DNA of 64,000 bases, from NCBI GenBank assembly GCA_013002225.1, contig JABDKL010000013.1, forward strand, positions 43,335 through 107,334, given 5' to 3'. Below the pieces are notes generated by a model, which was given only the letters and a program-made list of their open reading frames with translations, searched no databases and was not told the origin of the DNA. Shown one piece after another: positions 27,336-46,739 of the stretch. Position 1 is the first letter of the stretch, and every line of letters starts with the position of its first letter. Both the position numbers and the translations under genes were made by a program. The stretch comes from Winogradskyella sp. Lineage in GTDB: Bacteria > Bacteroidota > Bacteroidia > Flavobacteriales > Flavobacteriaceae.

Positions 27336-28007
27336 TTATCCACCAAAATCGTCAAATCTAATATGCTCATCTGGTATTCCGAAGTCTTCACCCATTTTTT
27401 GAACCGCCTGGTTCATTAATGGTGGACCACAGAAGTATAACTCTATGTCTTCTGGAGCGTCATGGTGATTTAAATAGTTATCAATTACACAATTGTGTAT
27501 AAACCCAACAAAACCATCACCTTCTTCGTCATTAATATCTTTCTTAACTTTCCAGTTATCCTCTTCTAAAGGCTCAGATAGTGCCATGTAGAATTTAAAA
27601 TTAGGAAAATCTTTTTCTAATTTTCTAAAATGTTCAATGTAGAACAGCTCACGCTTAGAACGACCGCCGTACCAATAGGTTACTTTTCTTCCAGTCTTAA
27701 TAGTTCTGAATAAGTGATAAAGGTGTGATCGCATTGGCGCCATACCTGCACCACCACCTACATAAAGCATTTCACTTTCTGACTCATTTATGAAGAATTC
27801 TCCATAAGGTCCCGAAATTGTTACTTTGTCACCCGGTTTCTGAGCAAATATATAAGAAGATGCTACACCAGGATTTACATCCATCCAACCGTTTTTAGCA
27901 CGATCCCATGGTGGGGTTGCAATACGAACATTTAGCATAATCTCACGACCTTCTGCAGGATAAGACGCCATTGAATAAGCGCGTTCTACAGTTTCGTTAT
28001 TTTTCAT
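27336..28007 (-). CDS. nqrF: NqrF C-terminal part (FAD/NADH-binding domain)
   Basis: This open frame of 223 codons starts at the ATG 9 bases after the TAG, so reinitiation is possible. It holds the FAD motif RAYSMASYP, the flavin-domain segment SGPYGEFFI, the NAD-binding [12 protein letters not shown] and the C-terminal [10 protein letters not shown] ... FDDFGG typical of NqrF. This domain takes hydride from NADH. Alone it would lack the membrane anchor and the iron-sulfur cluster. The frame ends 26 bases before the bidirectional terminator. Confidence 0.8.
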
Positions 28008-28016
28008 GACTAACGG

Positions 28017-28649
28017 CTATAATCCAAATTTATCCCATTCAGCTTGGAACTTATCTGGAGATTCATGCTCCTCTGGATGCGCCGTAATATCTATGTCTGA
28101 ATATTTTATTTCACATGGCGGAATTTCAATTTGAATATAACCTCCTGCTTTATAACCCATATCTTCTGGAATCTCAACTACAAACTCCTTAATAAATGAG
28201 GCTACATTATAATTTCGTACAACGGTTGCTTCCCATTTCTTGATACCAAAGACCTCTTCAGGAATTGTAATTTCCATATCCTGCTTAACCTTAACCTGGC
28301 AAGACAAACGTGCACCATGTGCCAATTCTTTTCTTGAAAAGTGGGGCGTCTCTGTTGGTAAAGCTTCACCTCCACCTTCCAGCACTTGACATTCACATTG
28401 AATACATGTTCCACCACCACCACAGGCAGATGGTAAAAAGATCTTATTATTACCTAAAGTAGATAATAAAGTGCCTCCTGAGGCTACTTCAATTTCGCGT
28501 TCGCCATTGATTAAAATCTTTACAGGACCAGATGGGGACAATTTTTGTTTTACAAATAATAATAAAGCAACCAATACCAGAGTTACCACTAAAAAGGCTC
28601 CTACTGTTGCTACTATAGTTCCGATTGTACTTGCGGCTAATATCATCAT
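28017..28649 (-). CDS. nqrF: NqrF N-terminal part (membrane anchor and 2Fe-2S domain)
   Basis: 210 codons from ATG 28649 (MMILAAST) to TAG. An N-terminal transmembrane helix (about residues 8-32) is followed by a plant-type ferredoxin domain with cluster cysteines in SACGGGGTCIQCEC and RLSCQV. The first part of the FAD-binding domain (IPEDMGYKAGGYIQIEIP) then runs to DKFGL and the stop. The start at 28649 is preferred over TTG 28658. It follows nqrE by only 9 bases. A truncated product of this sort could be membrane-bound but not NADH-reactive. Confidence 0.8.
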   Translation of the reverse strand: MMILAASTIGTIVATVGAFLVVTLVLVALLLFVKQKLSPSGPVKILINGEREIEVASGGTLLSTLGNNKIFLPSACGGGGTCIQCECQVLEGGGEALPTETPHFSRKELAHGARLSCQVKVKQDMEITIPEEVFGIKKWEATVVRNYNVASFIKEFVVEIPEDMGYKAGGYIQIEIPPCEIKYSDIDITAHPEEHESPDKFQAEWDKFGL

Positions 28650-28658
28650 ACTAATCAA

Positions 28659-29411
28659 TTACTTGTTTAAATTTTCAGTAATACTTTGACTGTCGTCAAC
28701 TACTACTGTTTTATTATCAGTTTCGTCATTTTCAATCGCTTCCATAATCACTTCACTAACTTCTGTATCAGTTGCTGGTTTTGCTTCCTCATCGCCTCCA
28801 GTTAACATTCCTCCAAAACTCATAAACCCAATAGCCATTAGACCCGTAATAATAAAAGTAATTCCTAAACCTCGTAAAGCTGGAGGGACATTACTATATC
28901 TAATTTTTTCACGAATTGCTGCAATTGCTAAAATCGCTAAAAACCATCCGATACCCGAAGCAACACCATAGTTAAGCGCTAAGCCTAAAGTTGCTATTTC
29001 TCTAGATTGCATAAATAGGGAACCTCCTAAAATGGCACAGTTTACAGCGATTAACGGTAAAAAGATACCTAATGAGTTATAAAGTGATGGCGAGAATTTC
29101 TCAACCACAATTTCTACTAATTGTACCATTGTTGCAATGGTTGCAATAAACATAATAAAAGATAAAAAGCTTAAATCGTAAGCTGCGTACTCTTCGCCTA
29201 ACCAAGATAAAGCACCTGGCTGAAGTATGTACTGATCTAACAACCAGTTTAAAGGTACTGTAATTGCTAAAACAAATATAACGGCAGCTCCTAAACCAAC
29301 AGCGGTTGAAACTTTTTTAGACACAGCAAGGTAAGAACACATTCCTAAGAATGTAGCAAATACCATGTTATCTATAAATATCGATTTGAAAAATAATTCT
29401 ATATGTTCCAT
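28659..29411 (-). CDS. nqrE: Na+-translocating NADH:quinone reductase subunit E
   Basis: A 250-residue inner-membrane subunit with six hydrophobic segments. Family motifs are [20 protein letters not shown] (with the cluster-binding Cys) and [11 protein letters not shown] near the end of the core. The core ends around residue 202. It is followed by about 48 acidic residues ([15 protein letters not shown] ... TENLNK) absent from the roughly 200-residue proteobacterial subunit. The tail is charged and probably cytoplasmic. It starts 75 bases after nqrD. Confidence 0.95.
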
Positions 29412-29486: not shown

Positions 29487-30119
29487 TTAATCTTCTATTA
29501 AAGCTTTATTTCTACTTCTTTGAACCCAAATGATGATTCCCACTACTATAAGTGCCATTGGTGATAATAACATAAATCCGTTATTTTCGTAACCGATAGC
29601 ATAAAGTCCTGTTTTTTCGATAGGGTCGCCCAGCACTGGAATTCCTAATAAAGTACCAGAACCCAATAGCTCTCTAAAGAAACCTACTATAATTAAAATT
29701 ACCCCATAACCTAAAGCATTACCTATACCATCTAAAAAAGATCTGTAAGGACCGTTTCCTAAAGCAAACGCCTCAAAACGTCCCATAATAATACAGTTGG
29801 TTATTATTAATCCAACGAAAACAGAAAGTGTCTTACTTAATTCGTAGGCGAAAGCCTTTAAAACTAAATCGACTATAATTACTAAAGTTGCAACAACAAT
29901 AAGTTGCACTATAATTCTAATTTTTGAAGGTATGATATTACGCATTAATGAAATAACAACATTACCGATACCAAGTACAAATAACACAGATATAGACATC
30001 ACAATAGATGCTTCTAACTCTGCAGTAATTGCCAAAGCTGAACAAATACCTAAAACCTGAATAGTAATAGGGTTATTATCTGTTAATGGGTCTAATATTA
30101 ATTTACTGTCTTTTCCCAT
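29487..30119 (-). CDS. nqrD: Na+-translocating NADH:quinone reductase subunit D
   Basis: A 210-residue membrane subunit, homologous to NqrE and topologically inverted relative to it. Six hydrophobic segments are visible. TNCIIMGRFEAFALGNGP carries the conserved Cys that helps bind the intramembrane iron-sulfur centre, and the start DNNPITIQVLGICSALA is family-typical. Length is normal. It begins four bases after nqrC. Confidence 0.96.
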   Translation of the reverse strand: MGKDSKLILDPLTDNNPITIQVLGICSALAITAELEASIVMSISVLFVLGIGNVVISLMRNIIPSKIRIIVQLIVVATLVIIVDLVLKAFAYELSKTLSVFVGLIITNCIIMGRFEAFALGNGPYRSFLDGIGNALGYGVILIIVGFFRELLGSGTLLGIPVLGDPIEKTGLYAIGYENNGFMLLSPMALIVVGIIIWVQRSRNKALIED

Positions 30120-30122
30120 AAT

Positions 30123-30914
30123 TTAGTTTCCTTTTAAGGTTTCAAAATAAGGTAAGTATAATCTTAAATCTTTTTTTATCATCGCAGTAACGCCGTCACC
30201 TGTAATAGTTGCACCAGCAATTGCGTCTACCTCATTATCTGTTTTGTCTTCATTTTTTGGATCTGCATTTCCTTTAGCTACAGTAATGCCTTTAAAAACA
30301 CCAGCCTCAGTTAAAAGATGTTCTCCATAAAAATCATCCATAAAATAGCGTTGCTTAATGTTAGCACCTAAACCAGGTGTTTCACCTTTGTGATCAAAAT
30401 AAGCACCTTGAACCACCATGTTTTCATCCATTGCAATATATCCCCAGATCGCATCCCACAGTCCTTTACCATATATAGGTGCAACGTAAAATGTTTTCCC
30501 GTCCTTATTACCTACAAATAATGGTAATTGTCTCGGTTCTCCTCGTTTAGCCTTAGCTTGCTGCTTCTTAACATCTATTAAATAAGGTTCTTTATTGTAC
30601 TCTGCAACATACTCTTCTCGAGTCTGCGTTTTTAAAATCTTTCCTGAACTATCTACAGTGATAACGATCTGTTCGGTAATGTTTTTACCAAATTCTTCCG
30701 GTGCCACATCTGTTGACACAAATACTGCACTAGTTTCATCATTTTCATTAACACCCATTGCATACAATATATTCTGCTGCTTCTCGATCTCCTCGTTCTG
30801 CGTAATCATAGGTTTGGTATAACCAAATAATCCTGCTAAAATCACACCTACGACGATTACCATTCCTATGGCGAAAATTACAGTATAAGAGTTTTTATCT
30901 GTTCTGTTTTCCAT
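30123..30914 (-). CDS. nqrC: Na+-translocating NADH:quinone reductase subunit C
   Basis: A 263-residue subunit with one N-terminal transmembrane helix (about residues 12-33) and a periplasmic FMN-binding domain. The flavinylation motif reads DAIAGATITGDGV, with the FMN acceptor at Thr236. The usual Ser before GAT is Ala here. FMN would be attached by ApbE. HKGETPGLGANI, another family motif, is also present. It is two bases from nqrB. Confidence 0.96.
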   Translation of the reverse strand: MENRTDKNSYTVIFAIGMVIVVGVILAGLFGYTKPMITQNEEIEKQQNILYAMGVNENDETSAVFVSTDVAPEEFGKNITEQIVITVDSSGKILKTQTREEYVAEYNKEPYLIDVKKQQAKAKRGEPRQLPLFVGNKDGKTFYVAPIYGKGLWDAIWGYIAMDENMVVQGAYFDHKGETPGLGANIKQRYFMDDFYGEHLLTEAGVFKGITVAKGNADPKNEDKTDNEVDAIAGATITGDGVTAMIKKDLRLYLPYFETLKGN

Positions 30915-30916
30915 GG

Positions 30917-32143
30917 TTATGCTGCTTTTACTTTAACACGTTTCATTCGTTTCTTAACGTTACCTTGAACCACATAATGGTCTATAGTTGGTGCAAAAAC
31001 ATTCATTAAAAGAATGGCTAAGAATACACCTTCTGGATAAGCTGGATTAAATACTCGGATCATGATAGATATAAATCCTATTAAGAAACCGTAAATCCAT
31101 TTACCTTTATTAGTCTGTGATGCTGTAACAGGATCTGTAGCCATATATACTGCTCCAAATAAAATACTACCAATAATTAAATGCTGCCAAAACGGAACAC
31201 TCATTAATCCGTAGAATTTACTCGAGTCACTGATCCAGCCCATATCTACAACGCCGTTAAAAATTAGTCCCATTACCAAAGCACCAACAATGGTACTTAA
31301 TATAATTCTCCAGCTACCAATTTTTGTGAAAATCAAAAATAAGGCCCCGATAATTATTAAGAATTTAGACGTTTCACCAACTGAACCCGGAATAATACCC
31401 CAGAACATATCCCAGTAGTCTATACCTGCCAAGGAGCTATTTTGCGCGTAGGCGCCTAATAAGGTTTCTCCAGAAATAGCATCTACATTTTGGCCCGCAG
31501 CAATCATTTGATCACGTTCTACAGCACCATGTACCCATACCTTATCACCAGACATCCAGGTAGGATAGGCGAAGAATAAGAATGCTCTTATGGTTAAGGC
31601 TGGATTAAGAATATTCATACCTGTACCACCAAAGACTTCCTTCCCGATTACTACGCCAAATATAACAGCTACCGCAAGCATCCATAGCGGAATATCGACA
31701 GGAACAATTAATGGCACTAACATTCCAGTTACCAAATAGCCTTCCTCAACTTCATGACCTTTTATAATCGCGAAGACGAATTCAACAGCTAAACCTACAC
31801 CATAGGAAACGGCTACCAATGGCAAGACCGTCCATGCGCCAATAATTAGATTATCGAGTGTCCAAAACGATGCTCCTAAAAAGCCATTTGCCGCTTCAAT
31901 TTCACCTAATGCTAAATAATGCTGATAACCTGCATTGAACATACCAAATATTAAACATGGTACTAAAGCCATGATTACTGTATTCATCGTACGCTTCAAG
32001 TCATCTGCTGCCTTAATATGAGTACCATTATGTGTCGTCTCATTAGGCATATATAAAAACGTAAAGAGGGCATTAAATCCAGGAAGCCACTTTTTGTCTT
32101 TATTCTTCTCTTTAAAATTATGTAAATTTTGTTTTAAACCCAT
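30917..32143 (-). CDS. nqrB: Na+-translocating NADH:quinone reductase subunit B
   Basis: A 408-residue polytopic subunit that carries covalent FMN and riboflavin and holds the Na+ path. The covalent FMN site is Thr258 in GSVGETSKF. GKEVFGGTGMNILNPAL and MATDPVTASQTNKG are further hallmarks. The start codon shares one base with the nqrA stop codon (TAATG). Confidence 0.96.
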   Translation of the reverse strand: MGLKQNLHNFKEKNKDKKWLPGFNALFTFLYMPNETTHNGTHIKAADDLKRTMNTVIMALVPCLIFGMFNAGYQHYLALGEIEAANGFLGASFWTLDNLIIGAWTVLPLVAVSYGVGLAVEFVFAIIKGHEVEEGYLVTGMLVPLIVPVDIPLWMLAVAVIFGVVIGKEVFGGTGMNILNPALTIRAFLFFAYPTWMSGDKVWVHGAVERDQMIAAGQNVDAISGETLLGAYAQNSSLAGIDYWDMFWGIIPGSVGETSKFLIIIGALFLIFTKIGSWRIILSTIVGALVMGLIFNGVVDMGWISDSSKFYGLMSVPFWQHLIIGSILFGAVYMATDPVTASQTNKGKWIYGFLIGFISIMIRVFNPAYPEGVFLAILLMNVFAPTIDHYVVQGNVKKRMKRVKVKAA

Positions 32144-33492
32144 TATCCTATTTCTTTAAGCATTAAGTCTAATCCTTCTCTTATAATTTTTTGATGTGGT
32201 TGCTTAGACACACAAATAAATTCTGTTAATGCAAAATCCTCAGGTGCAACTTCGTACATTCCTAAAGCCTCCATTTCATCTAAATCCTGATACATACAGG
32301 CCTTTAAAATTTGCATTGGGTAAATATCTAAAGGAAATACTTCTTCGTAATTACCAGTAACTACAAATGCACGATGTTCGCCATTTGTGTTTGTGTCTAA
32401 ATCGTATTTCTTTTTTGGTGTTAGCCACGAAAACGTCAAAGCTCTTGTTGTGGATACTTTATCGAAAACAGGCTTATTCCAACCAAAAAATTCATAATCA
32501 TCACCTTCTGGTATTACAGTAATAACATTACTATAATAGTCCAAATTACCGTCAGGTTGCACATGCTTTCCTGATAATACGTTTCCAGAAATAATACGGT
32601 CATTGCCATTTTGCTCAACACCATTATCATATACCATTGTAGCAACCTCAGCTCCTATTTTGGTTTTGAAATATCTTGGTTTTTTAACAGATGACCCTGT
32701 TAAAGCAACAATACGTTCTGCATTAAATTTACCAGTTAACAAAAGTTCGCCTATAATGACTAAATCTTGCGCATTTACGGTCCAAACAACTTCCCCTTTA
32801 TTCACAGGACTAACCTTATTGATTAAAGTCCCTACATTCCCTGATGGGTGAGGCCCAGAAACATGATAGGTTGTAGCATCTTTTAATTGAGCTAATGGAG
32901 AATTAGAACTTCCTACGGAGATATGTACACCTCCTTCGGTTAACTTTGATAAGGCAGTTACCGCAGTTTGTAATTCTGCCTCCTTACCTGCCAATGTATA
33001 GTCTAAATCTGCTGCTAACGGTGCACTCGCATACCCGGAAATAAAAATTGCTTTTGGCGATCTATCGGCTTTTGCAACAACGTCATAAGGACGTTGTTTT
33101 ATAAATGCCCAACAACCAGAAGCCAACAAATGTGATTTCAATTTATCAGCATCAGATGATACATCAAATTTACCATGATCTACATAAGCCTGCTCTTTAT
33201 CTGCAGTAATTTTGATAGCGTCGATACGACGTCTAGGTCCACGTTGTACTTCAGTTACTTCACCAGAAACCGGTGAAACAAACTTCATAGCCTCGTTATC
33301 TTTATTGTAAAAAAGTGTTTCACCTGCCTTAACACGTGTGCCTTCTTTTGCAACAAGTTTTGGAATAATACTGTGGAAATCTTCAGGTCTAATAGAATAG
33401 AAATTACTAACAATAGCGTTCTCTGTAGCTTTTTCGGCTTCACCGACTAACCTAATATCTAAACCCTTTTTTATTCTGATGTCTTTTGACAT
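32143..33492 (-). CDS. nqrA: Na+-translocating NADH:quinone reductase subunit A
   Basis: A 449-residue cytoplasm-facing subunit and the first gene of the operon. It begins KDIRIKKGLDIRLVGEAE, then FHSIIPKLVAKEGTRVKAG, a biotinyl-lipoyl-like hairpin with LFYNKDNEAMKFVSPVSG, and GPHPSGNVGTLI. These are diagnostic for NqrA, which contacts the quinone site. A -7 promoter element lies 33 bases upstream. The whole nqr operon runs from here to the terminator near 27.3 kb. Confidence 0.96.
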   Translation of the reverse strand: MSKDIRIKKGLDIRLVGEAEKATENAIVSNFYSIRPEDFHSIIPKLVAKEGTRVKAGETLFYNKDNEAMKFVSPVSGEVTEVQRGPRRRIDAIKITADKEQAYVDHGKFDVSSDADKLKSHLLASGCWAFIKQRPYDVVAKADRSPKAIFISGYASAPLAADLDYTLAGKEAELQTAVTALSKLTEGGVHISVGSSNSPLAQLKDATTYHVSGPHPSGNVGTLINKVSPVNKGEVVWTVNAQDLVIIGELLLTGKFNAERIVALTGSSVKKPRYFKTKIGAEVATMVYDNGVEQNGNDRIISGNVLSGKHVQPDGNLDYYSNVITVIPEGDDYEFFGWNKPVFDKVSTTRALTFSWLTPKKKYDLDTNTNGEHRAFVVTGNYEEVFPLDIYPMQILKACMYQDLDEMEALGMYEVAPEDFALTEFICVSKQPHQKIIREGLDLMLKEIG

Positions 33493-45389: not shown

Positions 45390-46739
45390 CTATGAGAAAA
45401 ATGCTTCCACTTCTGTAATTGACCTTGGCAAACAACAAACAACCACACGGTCCCCTGCTTCTATTTTAAAACTCCCTAAAGGTATTAAACCTATTCCGTT
45501 TCTTATTACGCCTCCAAATATGGCTGACCTCGGAAAATTTAGGTCTTTAATCACCTTATTGGTGATCTTCGAATTTGGTTTTACAACAAACTCTAGTAGT
45601 TCTGCATTCATATTGGTTAATTTGGTCATAGCCACAACCTCACCTTTACGGATGTATCTAAAAATATTATTAGCCGCAAGTAATTTTTTGTTGATGAGTG
45701 TATCTATACCAATAGACTGGGATAACTGATAATAGTCCATATTCTCTACTAAAGCAATGGTTTTTTTGACCCCTTTAGATTTTGCGAGTAAACAAGACAT
45801 AATATTAGTTTCCGAATTCCCAGTTACGGAGATAAAGGCATCCGTGTCTGATATATTTTCCTCTTCTAAAATCTCAACATTACGTCCATCTCCACAAATA
45901 ACCAAGGCGTTTGGTAAATCTTCTGCTAAGTCTTCTGCAACCCCCTTTTTACTTTCTACAATTTTTACATTAAACTTACTGGCGCACAAATCTTTAGCTG
46001 TTTTAAAGCCTATTTTACTTCCCCCAAGAATCATTACGTTTTTAATATCCACTTTTACCTTTCCAGATAAATCAAACAATTCTGCATCACCGCCTTTTGA
46101 GGTCATAAAAACAACCTTATCCCCTTCTTTAAATTGTGTGTCGCCTCTTGGTATTATGGTATATTGTGTCCCATAACGCTGAATAGCAATGGGGATAAAA
46201 TGTAACTCCGGAAAAATTGCCGCGGCCTCTTTAACTGTTTTACCGACAAAGGTTGCTGTTCTGGACAGACGTAAGCCCAGCATCGTTAATGCTCCATCCT
46301 CAAACTCATAAGTATCGTTAAAACCGTACTGATTAAGCAATAGCTCTATTTCGGATGCTGCTAAAGACTCTGGCGAGATTAATTCATCGATACCAAATTG
46401 CGAAAATCCTATCGTTTCTTTTTCATCAATAAATTCAGTATTAGAAATACGAGCTATAGTACGTTGTGCACCAAGTTGCTTGGCCAATACACATGCTGTA
46501 ATGTTAGTCGTTTCAGAGGAGGTGACCGCAATAAAAAGTGCTGCGGTATCTATACGTGCATCTCTTAAAATGGCAATAGATGTAGCATCTCCTTTAATGG
46601 TTCTAATATCTAAATGTTCCCCAGCATACGTAAGACTGTCCTTTTTCGTATCTATAAGGGTGATCTCTTGAGACTCATAAGATAATAATTTTGCCAAATG
46701 AAACCCTACCTCTCCAGCACCTGCGATAATTATTTTCAT
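45390..46739 (-). CDS. trkA: Trk system potassium uptake regulator
   Basis: A 449-residue cytoplasmic protein with two RCK units. The first Rossmann motif is IIAGAGEVGFHLAKLL near residue 3, and a degenerate second one is MILGGSKIGFKTA near residue 230. Each is followed by a TrkA-C domain (residues about 140-220 and 370-449). It gates TrkH in response to NAD(H)/ATP. Operon trkA-trkH; a -33/-7 promoter lies just upstream. Confidence 0.95.
   Translation of the reverse strand: MKIIIAGAGEVGFHLAKLLSYESQEITLIDTKKDSLTYAGEHLDIRTIKGDATSIAILRDARIDTAALFIAVTSSETTNITACVLAKQLGAQRTIARISNTEFIDEKETIGFSQFGIDELISPESLAASEIELLLNQYGFNDTYEFEDGALTMLGLRLSRTATFVGKTVKEAAAIFPELHFIPIAIQRYGTQYTIIPRGDTQFKEGDKVVFMTSKGGDAELFDLSGKVKVDIKNVMILGGSKIGFKTAKDLCASKFNVKIVESKKGVAEDLAEDLPNALVICGDGRNVEILEEENISDTDAFISVTGNSETNIMSCLLAKSKGVKKTIALVENMDYYQLSQSIGIDTLINKKLLAANNIFRYIRKGEVVAMTKLTNMNAELLEFVVKPNSKITNKVIKDLNFPRSAIFGGVIRNGIGLIPLGSFKIEAGDRVVVCCLPRSITEVEAFFS

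Follow-up and report, generated by a model that had tools for sequence, protein, structure and literature searches.

Why does nqrF in a Winogradskyella genome, encoded together with a complete set of nqrABCDE genes, contain an in-frame TAG? The window, i.e., the whole stretch of 64,000 nucleotides analysed here, could hold a damaged gene, an enzyme made in two pieces, or a codon that the cell reads as an amino acid. We compared the locus with related genomes, placed the stop within the domains of the protein, and examined gene junctions, termination and tRNAs in the same draft genome.

Results and discussion

The nqrF frame and its operon

The nqrF frame runs on the minus strand from 28658 to its normal end at 27336, and the TAG is its sole internal stop, with the residues ...DKFGL before it and PLVMKNN... 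after it in one frame (Table 1). This bears out the initial annotation, which had described an in-frame TAG with the same frame on both sides and no other lesion. The site occupies bases 71,351-71,353 of a 107,334-base contig, far from the contig ends. As encoded, nqrF is not one continuous 2Fe-2S, FAD and NADH chain, since the TAG breaks it. With the TAG read as a residue, the protein scores 563.8 bits over the whole TIGR01941 model (cut-off 295). The upstream piece, whose start was taken at the ATG at 28649, was delimited by Pfam Fer2 at residues 50-125, TIGR01941 profile positions 1-193 and the PDB alignment, and alone it reaches 232.6 bits, below the cut-off. The downstream piece matches PF00970 (from profile position 43) and PF00175, and covers TIGR01941 profile positions 200-405 with 309.5 bits, above the cut-off. 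It begins at the next ATG, which had been pointed out as lying shortly after the stop and is indeed the fourth codon on, at 28007. An AlphaFold model of the read-through protein had a mean pLDDT of 51.6, and no conclusion rests on it.

Table 1. Features of the nqr locus, in window coordinates.
Feature	Position	Strand	Basis
nqrA, intact	32143..33492	-	NF003761, 640.9 bits, cut-off 450
nqrB, intact	30917..32143	-	NF003756, 527.7 bits, cut-off 414
nqrC, intact	30123..30914	-	NF003753, 345 bits, cut-off 329
nqrD, intact	29487..30119	-	NF006777, 310.4 bits, cut-off 235
nqrE, intact	28659..29411	-	TIGR01940, 294.1 bits, cut-off 247.55
nqrF upstream piece: N-terminal hydrophobic segment, 2Fe-2S domain, first part of FNR-like (FAD/NADH) domain	28020..28649	-	
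In-frame TAG, codon 214 of nqrF counted from TTG at 28658	28017..28019	-	sequence, translation
nqrF downstream piece from next ATG: rest of FAD-binding region and NAD-binding region	27336..28007	-	

The other five genes of the operon are intact, as had been proposed; all score above their NCBIfam equivalog cut-offs, and none was flagged as shortened against five relatives. We found no second NqrF in this genome. A plasmid search matched 28 records, all of which fell short of 80% query coverage, and a viral-contig scan for the stop site gave 0 matches.

Position of the stop in the protein

In the alignment with Vibrio cholerae NqrF (PDB 8a1t chain F), codon 214 corresponds to residue 198. The similarity of the read-through protein to this subunit begins at query residue 13 and reaches the end, whereas the Winogradskyella copy has TAG at the position of residue 198. 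According to the available part of one source, the FNR-like NADH-oxidising domain of V. cholerae NqrF comprises residues 129-408 (PMC10643135). With these borders the stop sits within the FNR-like domain, which rules out a domain border at this point and contradicts the earlier placement of the TAG between the iron-sulfur and FAD/NADH domains. The FNR-like domain is therefore cut in two: its first part stays on the upstream piece, along with the anchor and the 2Fe-2S domain, and is missing from the downstream piece. The Pfam FAD_binding_6 match begins six residues past the stop, in mid-profile. Tyr212, Ser213 and Phe406 of V. cholerae NqrF lie near the flavin, as stated in the accessible portion of PMC10739449, and all three map after the stop.

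The same codon in relatives

NqrF is present in all 67 other genomes of the same genus (Winogradskyella grade), being partial in one (G049). At the position of codon 214 they carry TGG in 61 cases and an arginine codon in six (CGT 4, CGA 1, AGA 1); a stop occurs in none. The TAG is thus one base off the tryptophan codon of the relatives, in agreement with the single TGG-to-TAG change suggested at the outset. The accompanying expectation of an aromatic residue holds for the tryptophan majority but fails for the six genomes with arginine (L031, L320, L321, L322, L346 and L347), so the position is not strictly aromatic. In a separate set of 109 loci, 29 from the genus and 80 from a wider genome collection, two sources that overlap, the codon was TGG in 108 and CGA in one.

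A search for the NqrF family matched 385 of 397 genomes at E 1e-60, and by hand count five of the 150 family matches listed carried a stop flag, this genome included. Three of these flagged stops (G241, G413 and G239) sit upstream of the ATG, and G376 was flagged, yet no stop was seen in its aligned body. Two genomes of the genus were likewise considered for a shared split and rejected: in G024 the flagged stop, at residue 3, precedes the ATG, and G029 shows no stop in the aligned stretch despite its flag. Among the relatives compared, the TAG at codon 214 is private to this assembly. The ATG at 28007 is a conserved methionine codon: a codon-level reading of 29 relatives, all without the stop, showed it in every one, so the stop did not bring a new reinitiation site with it.

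Assembly quality and gene junctions

The genome that holds the window is a 214-contig draft of 2.99 Mb with 95.12% completeness and 4.28% contamination. The window was compared with 374 gene-sized frames of five relatives; 200 of these frames matched and together spanned 46,091 of its bases. Within these bases the nqrF stop is the sole in-frame stop backed by more than one relative, namely by all five, and no frameshifts were reported. Nine other stop positions, each seen with the frame of one relative only, were taken for shadow frames.

A scan of 461,000 bases (the window plus 397,000 others), which uses codon bias alone and is blind to frameshifts, returned 17 same-frame junctions with coding signal on both flanks; in long frames, 84% of 8,307 positions used as a test pass its two-flank criterion, a share that the extra filters lower. 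In thirteen junctions, all ending in TAA, an ATG follows at a distance of 1-7 codons; these were taken by look as ordinary gene borders, with homology for the two in the nqr operon. Three without a near ATG (L202:6228, L210:5196 and window:20401) were by look taken as antisense shadows. This leaves nqrF as the only interrupted-looking gene among the 17. That the assembly is clean elsewhere makes a generally careless consensus less likely but says nothing against an isolated error, and a lone lesion is what either a single mutation or a single error would leave.

The two junctions within the operon share the layout of the nqrF lesion. At the nqrC/nqrD border (30125-30119) the frame is the same and an ATG follows two codons after the stop, and at the nqrE/nqrF border (28661-28649) it follows four codons after; both are ordinary gene borders.

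Conservation of the two pieces

The median dN/dS against relatives was 0.017 for the downstream part of nqrF, compared with 0.027 among the relatives themselves, and 0.041 for the upstream part, compared with 0.046 (29 relatives' loci, of which 28 could be used for downstream dS). Sites private to this genome comprise five synonymous and no nonsynonymous changes downstream, and three synonymous and one nonsynonymous upstream. The downstream piece thus shows no decay. Because synonymous sites are near saturation, dN/dS indicates only a young lesion or a working gene and gives no date; the lack of decay in nqrF would be equally compatible with a functional gene and with a lesion of very recent origin.

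A nonsense lesion as the preferred explanation

We consider it very probable that nqrF carries an ordinary single-base nonsense lesion, whether from a recent mutation in the assembled population or from a consensus or assembly error in the draft. In this case one base in an otherwise well-kept gene would have turned the usual tryptophan codon into TAG. The lesion resembles known recent amber mutations and draft-consensus errors in conserved genes, affecting one base, being private, with open flanks and no other decay, and we detected no difference from them. Sequencing error and recent mutation, both among the options named initially, stand after the comparison with relatives. We rate the two as about equal. 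The literature on readthrough, suppression and draft-genome errors offered nothing decisive for this case; in the parts of the literature available, there was no match for nqrF in Winogradskyella and nothing relevant on nqrF pseudogenes.

If the lesion is real, translation would stop at the TAG and yield a membrane-anchored 2Fe-2S piece without the residues that contact flavin and NADH, and with such a piece the pump presumably could not take electrons from NADH. We infer from the sequence that NqrF function would be lost. No NuoH-type match for complex I was found in this genome and nqrA to nqrE are intact, so a lasting loss of NqrF would be costly. The protein encoded at G000:C65:22444-23403 resembles type II NADH dehydrogenases, and its best PDB match is 9mqy, a non-electrogenic NADH:ubiquinone reductase (E 3.9e-73). 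Through this gene the loss could be survivable, as it offers a bypass in principle, and the cell would then probably lean on the type II enzyme. The early remark that an inactivated operon would be surprising is softened by the type II gene, the lack of a complex I match notwithstanding.

Improbable alternatives: readthrough, reinitiation and recoding

A real stop fixed in the species, with NqrF made as two chains by stop and restart at 28017/28007 or as one chain by leaky UAG readthrough, is in our judgement very improbable.

Amber suppression or natural readthrough would require some ribosomes to insert an amino acid at the UAG, yielding full-length NqrF in sufficient amounts; we regard it as very unlikely. 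The base directly after the TAG is C, a context called inefficient for termination, especially of UGA, in the accessible portion of PMC5289835, and the arginine in six relatives implies that an inserted residue other than tryptophan may work. At -34.2 kcal/mol, the folding energy of the region around the stop is below that of most shuffles (z -2.16), yet the values of the 67 relatives, which all lack the stop, range from -38.1 to -19.6 and bracket it.

TAG also serves as a stop in this genome. Fifty window frames have relatives in at least three of the five genomes, and 45 of them end alike in at least two, i.e., within 3 residues of the relatives' frame end. Seven of the 45 end in TAG, one of which, 45390-46739, is likewise followed by C. 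Four of the other five differ at the end by a few residues (at most 12), and the fifth, nqrF, is short by 227 residues against all five relatives. The RF1 gene (prfA) is present. The search flagged two stops in it, suggesting damage, but no stop interrupts its frame across 358 aa. Similar prfA flags occur in many other genomes of the genus.

A tRNA family search, in which the best 150 of 262 candidates were scored, gave at least 31 tRNA places. None of the 31 tRNAs has a CTA anticodon according to ARAGORN, which was run on 30 loci that also cover the 31st place. The tRNA set of this draft is incomplete, as tRNA-Trp was not found in the assembly and tRNA-Ile and tRNA-Asn are absent among the 31, so a suppressor could be missed. 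An anticodon-loop-like match to GGTCTCTAAAACC at G000:C77:39675 was rejected, as ARAGORN finds no tRNA there. In four relatives tRNA-Trp lies 1.3-1.4 kb beyond tRNA-Thr(GGT); in the draft, the contig breaks off 183 bases past tRNA-Thr(GGT), at the contig end G000:C33:59477-59731. With RF1 open, TAG ending other genes and no suppressor in this incomplete set, the suggestion of amber suppression gained no support.

A two-chain NqrF, in which ribosomes stop at the TAG and restart at the ATG in the fourth codon after it and the chains assemble into a working subunit, is a still fainter prospect. Its geometry is possible, given the 13 other junctions in 461 kb with an equally near ATG, both pieces are free of decay, and the downstream piece alone exceeds the cut-off of the NqrF model. 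Against it, the cut lies inside the FNR-like domain as delimited above and not at an inter-domain linker, the restart ATG is the methionine conserved among relatives that lack the stop, and no genome of the genus shares the split. The functional two-piece NqrF offered in the initial annotation thus found no backing. Recoding of TAG, genome-wide or at this site, has nothing in its favour beyond the stop itself and is exceedingly improbable, as TAG ends 29 of the 202 stop-to-stop frames of at least 300 codons in the 461 kb sample besides the seven window frames at relatives' ends, and RF1 is present with an open frame.

Implications

Most likely, the stop in nqrF reflects a recent loss mutation or an error in the sequence and not a new two-piece enzyme. 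Since ordinary junctions also have a near ATG, a lone stop in a clean draft can mimic a designed gene junction, and the case of nqrF is a caution on reading lone in-frame stops in clean draft genomes. Were the two-chain reading true, the pieces would rebuild the FNR-like domain non-covalently; leaky readthrough, if true, would throttle the sodium pump, with the type II dehydrogenase carrying most NADH oxidation. If the stop is real and tolerated, this natural population would be living with a sodium pump that NADH does not feed or, alternatively, with a respiratory flavoprotein split within one of its domains.
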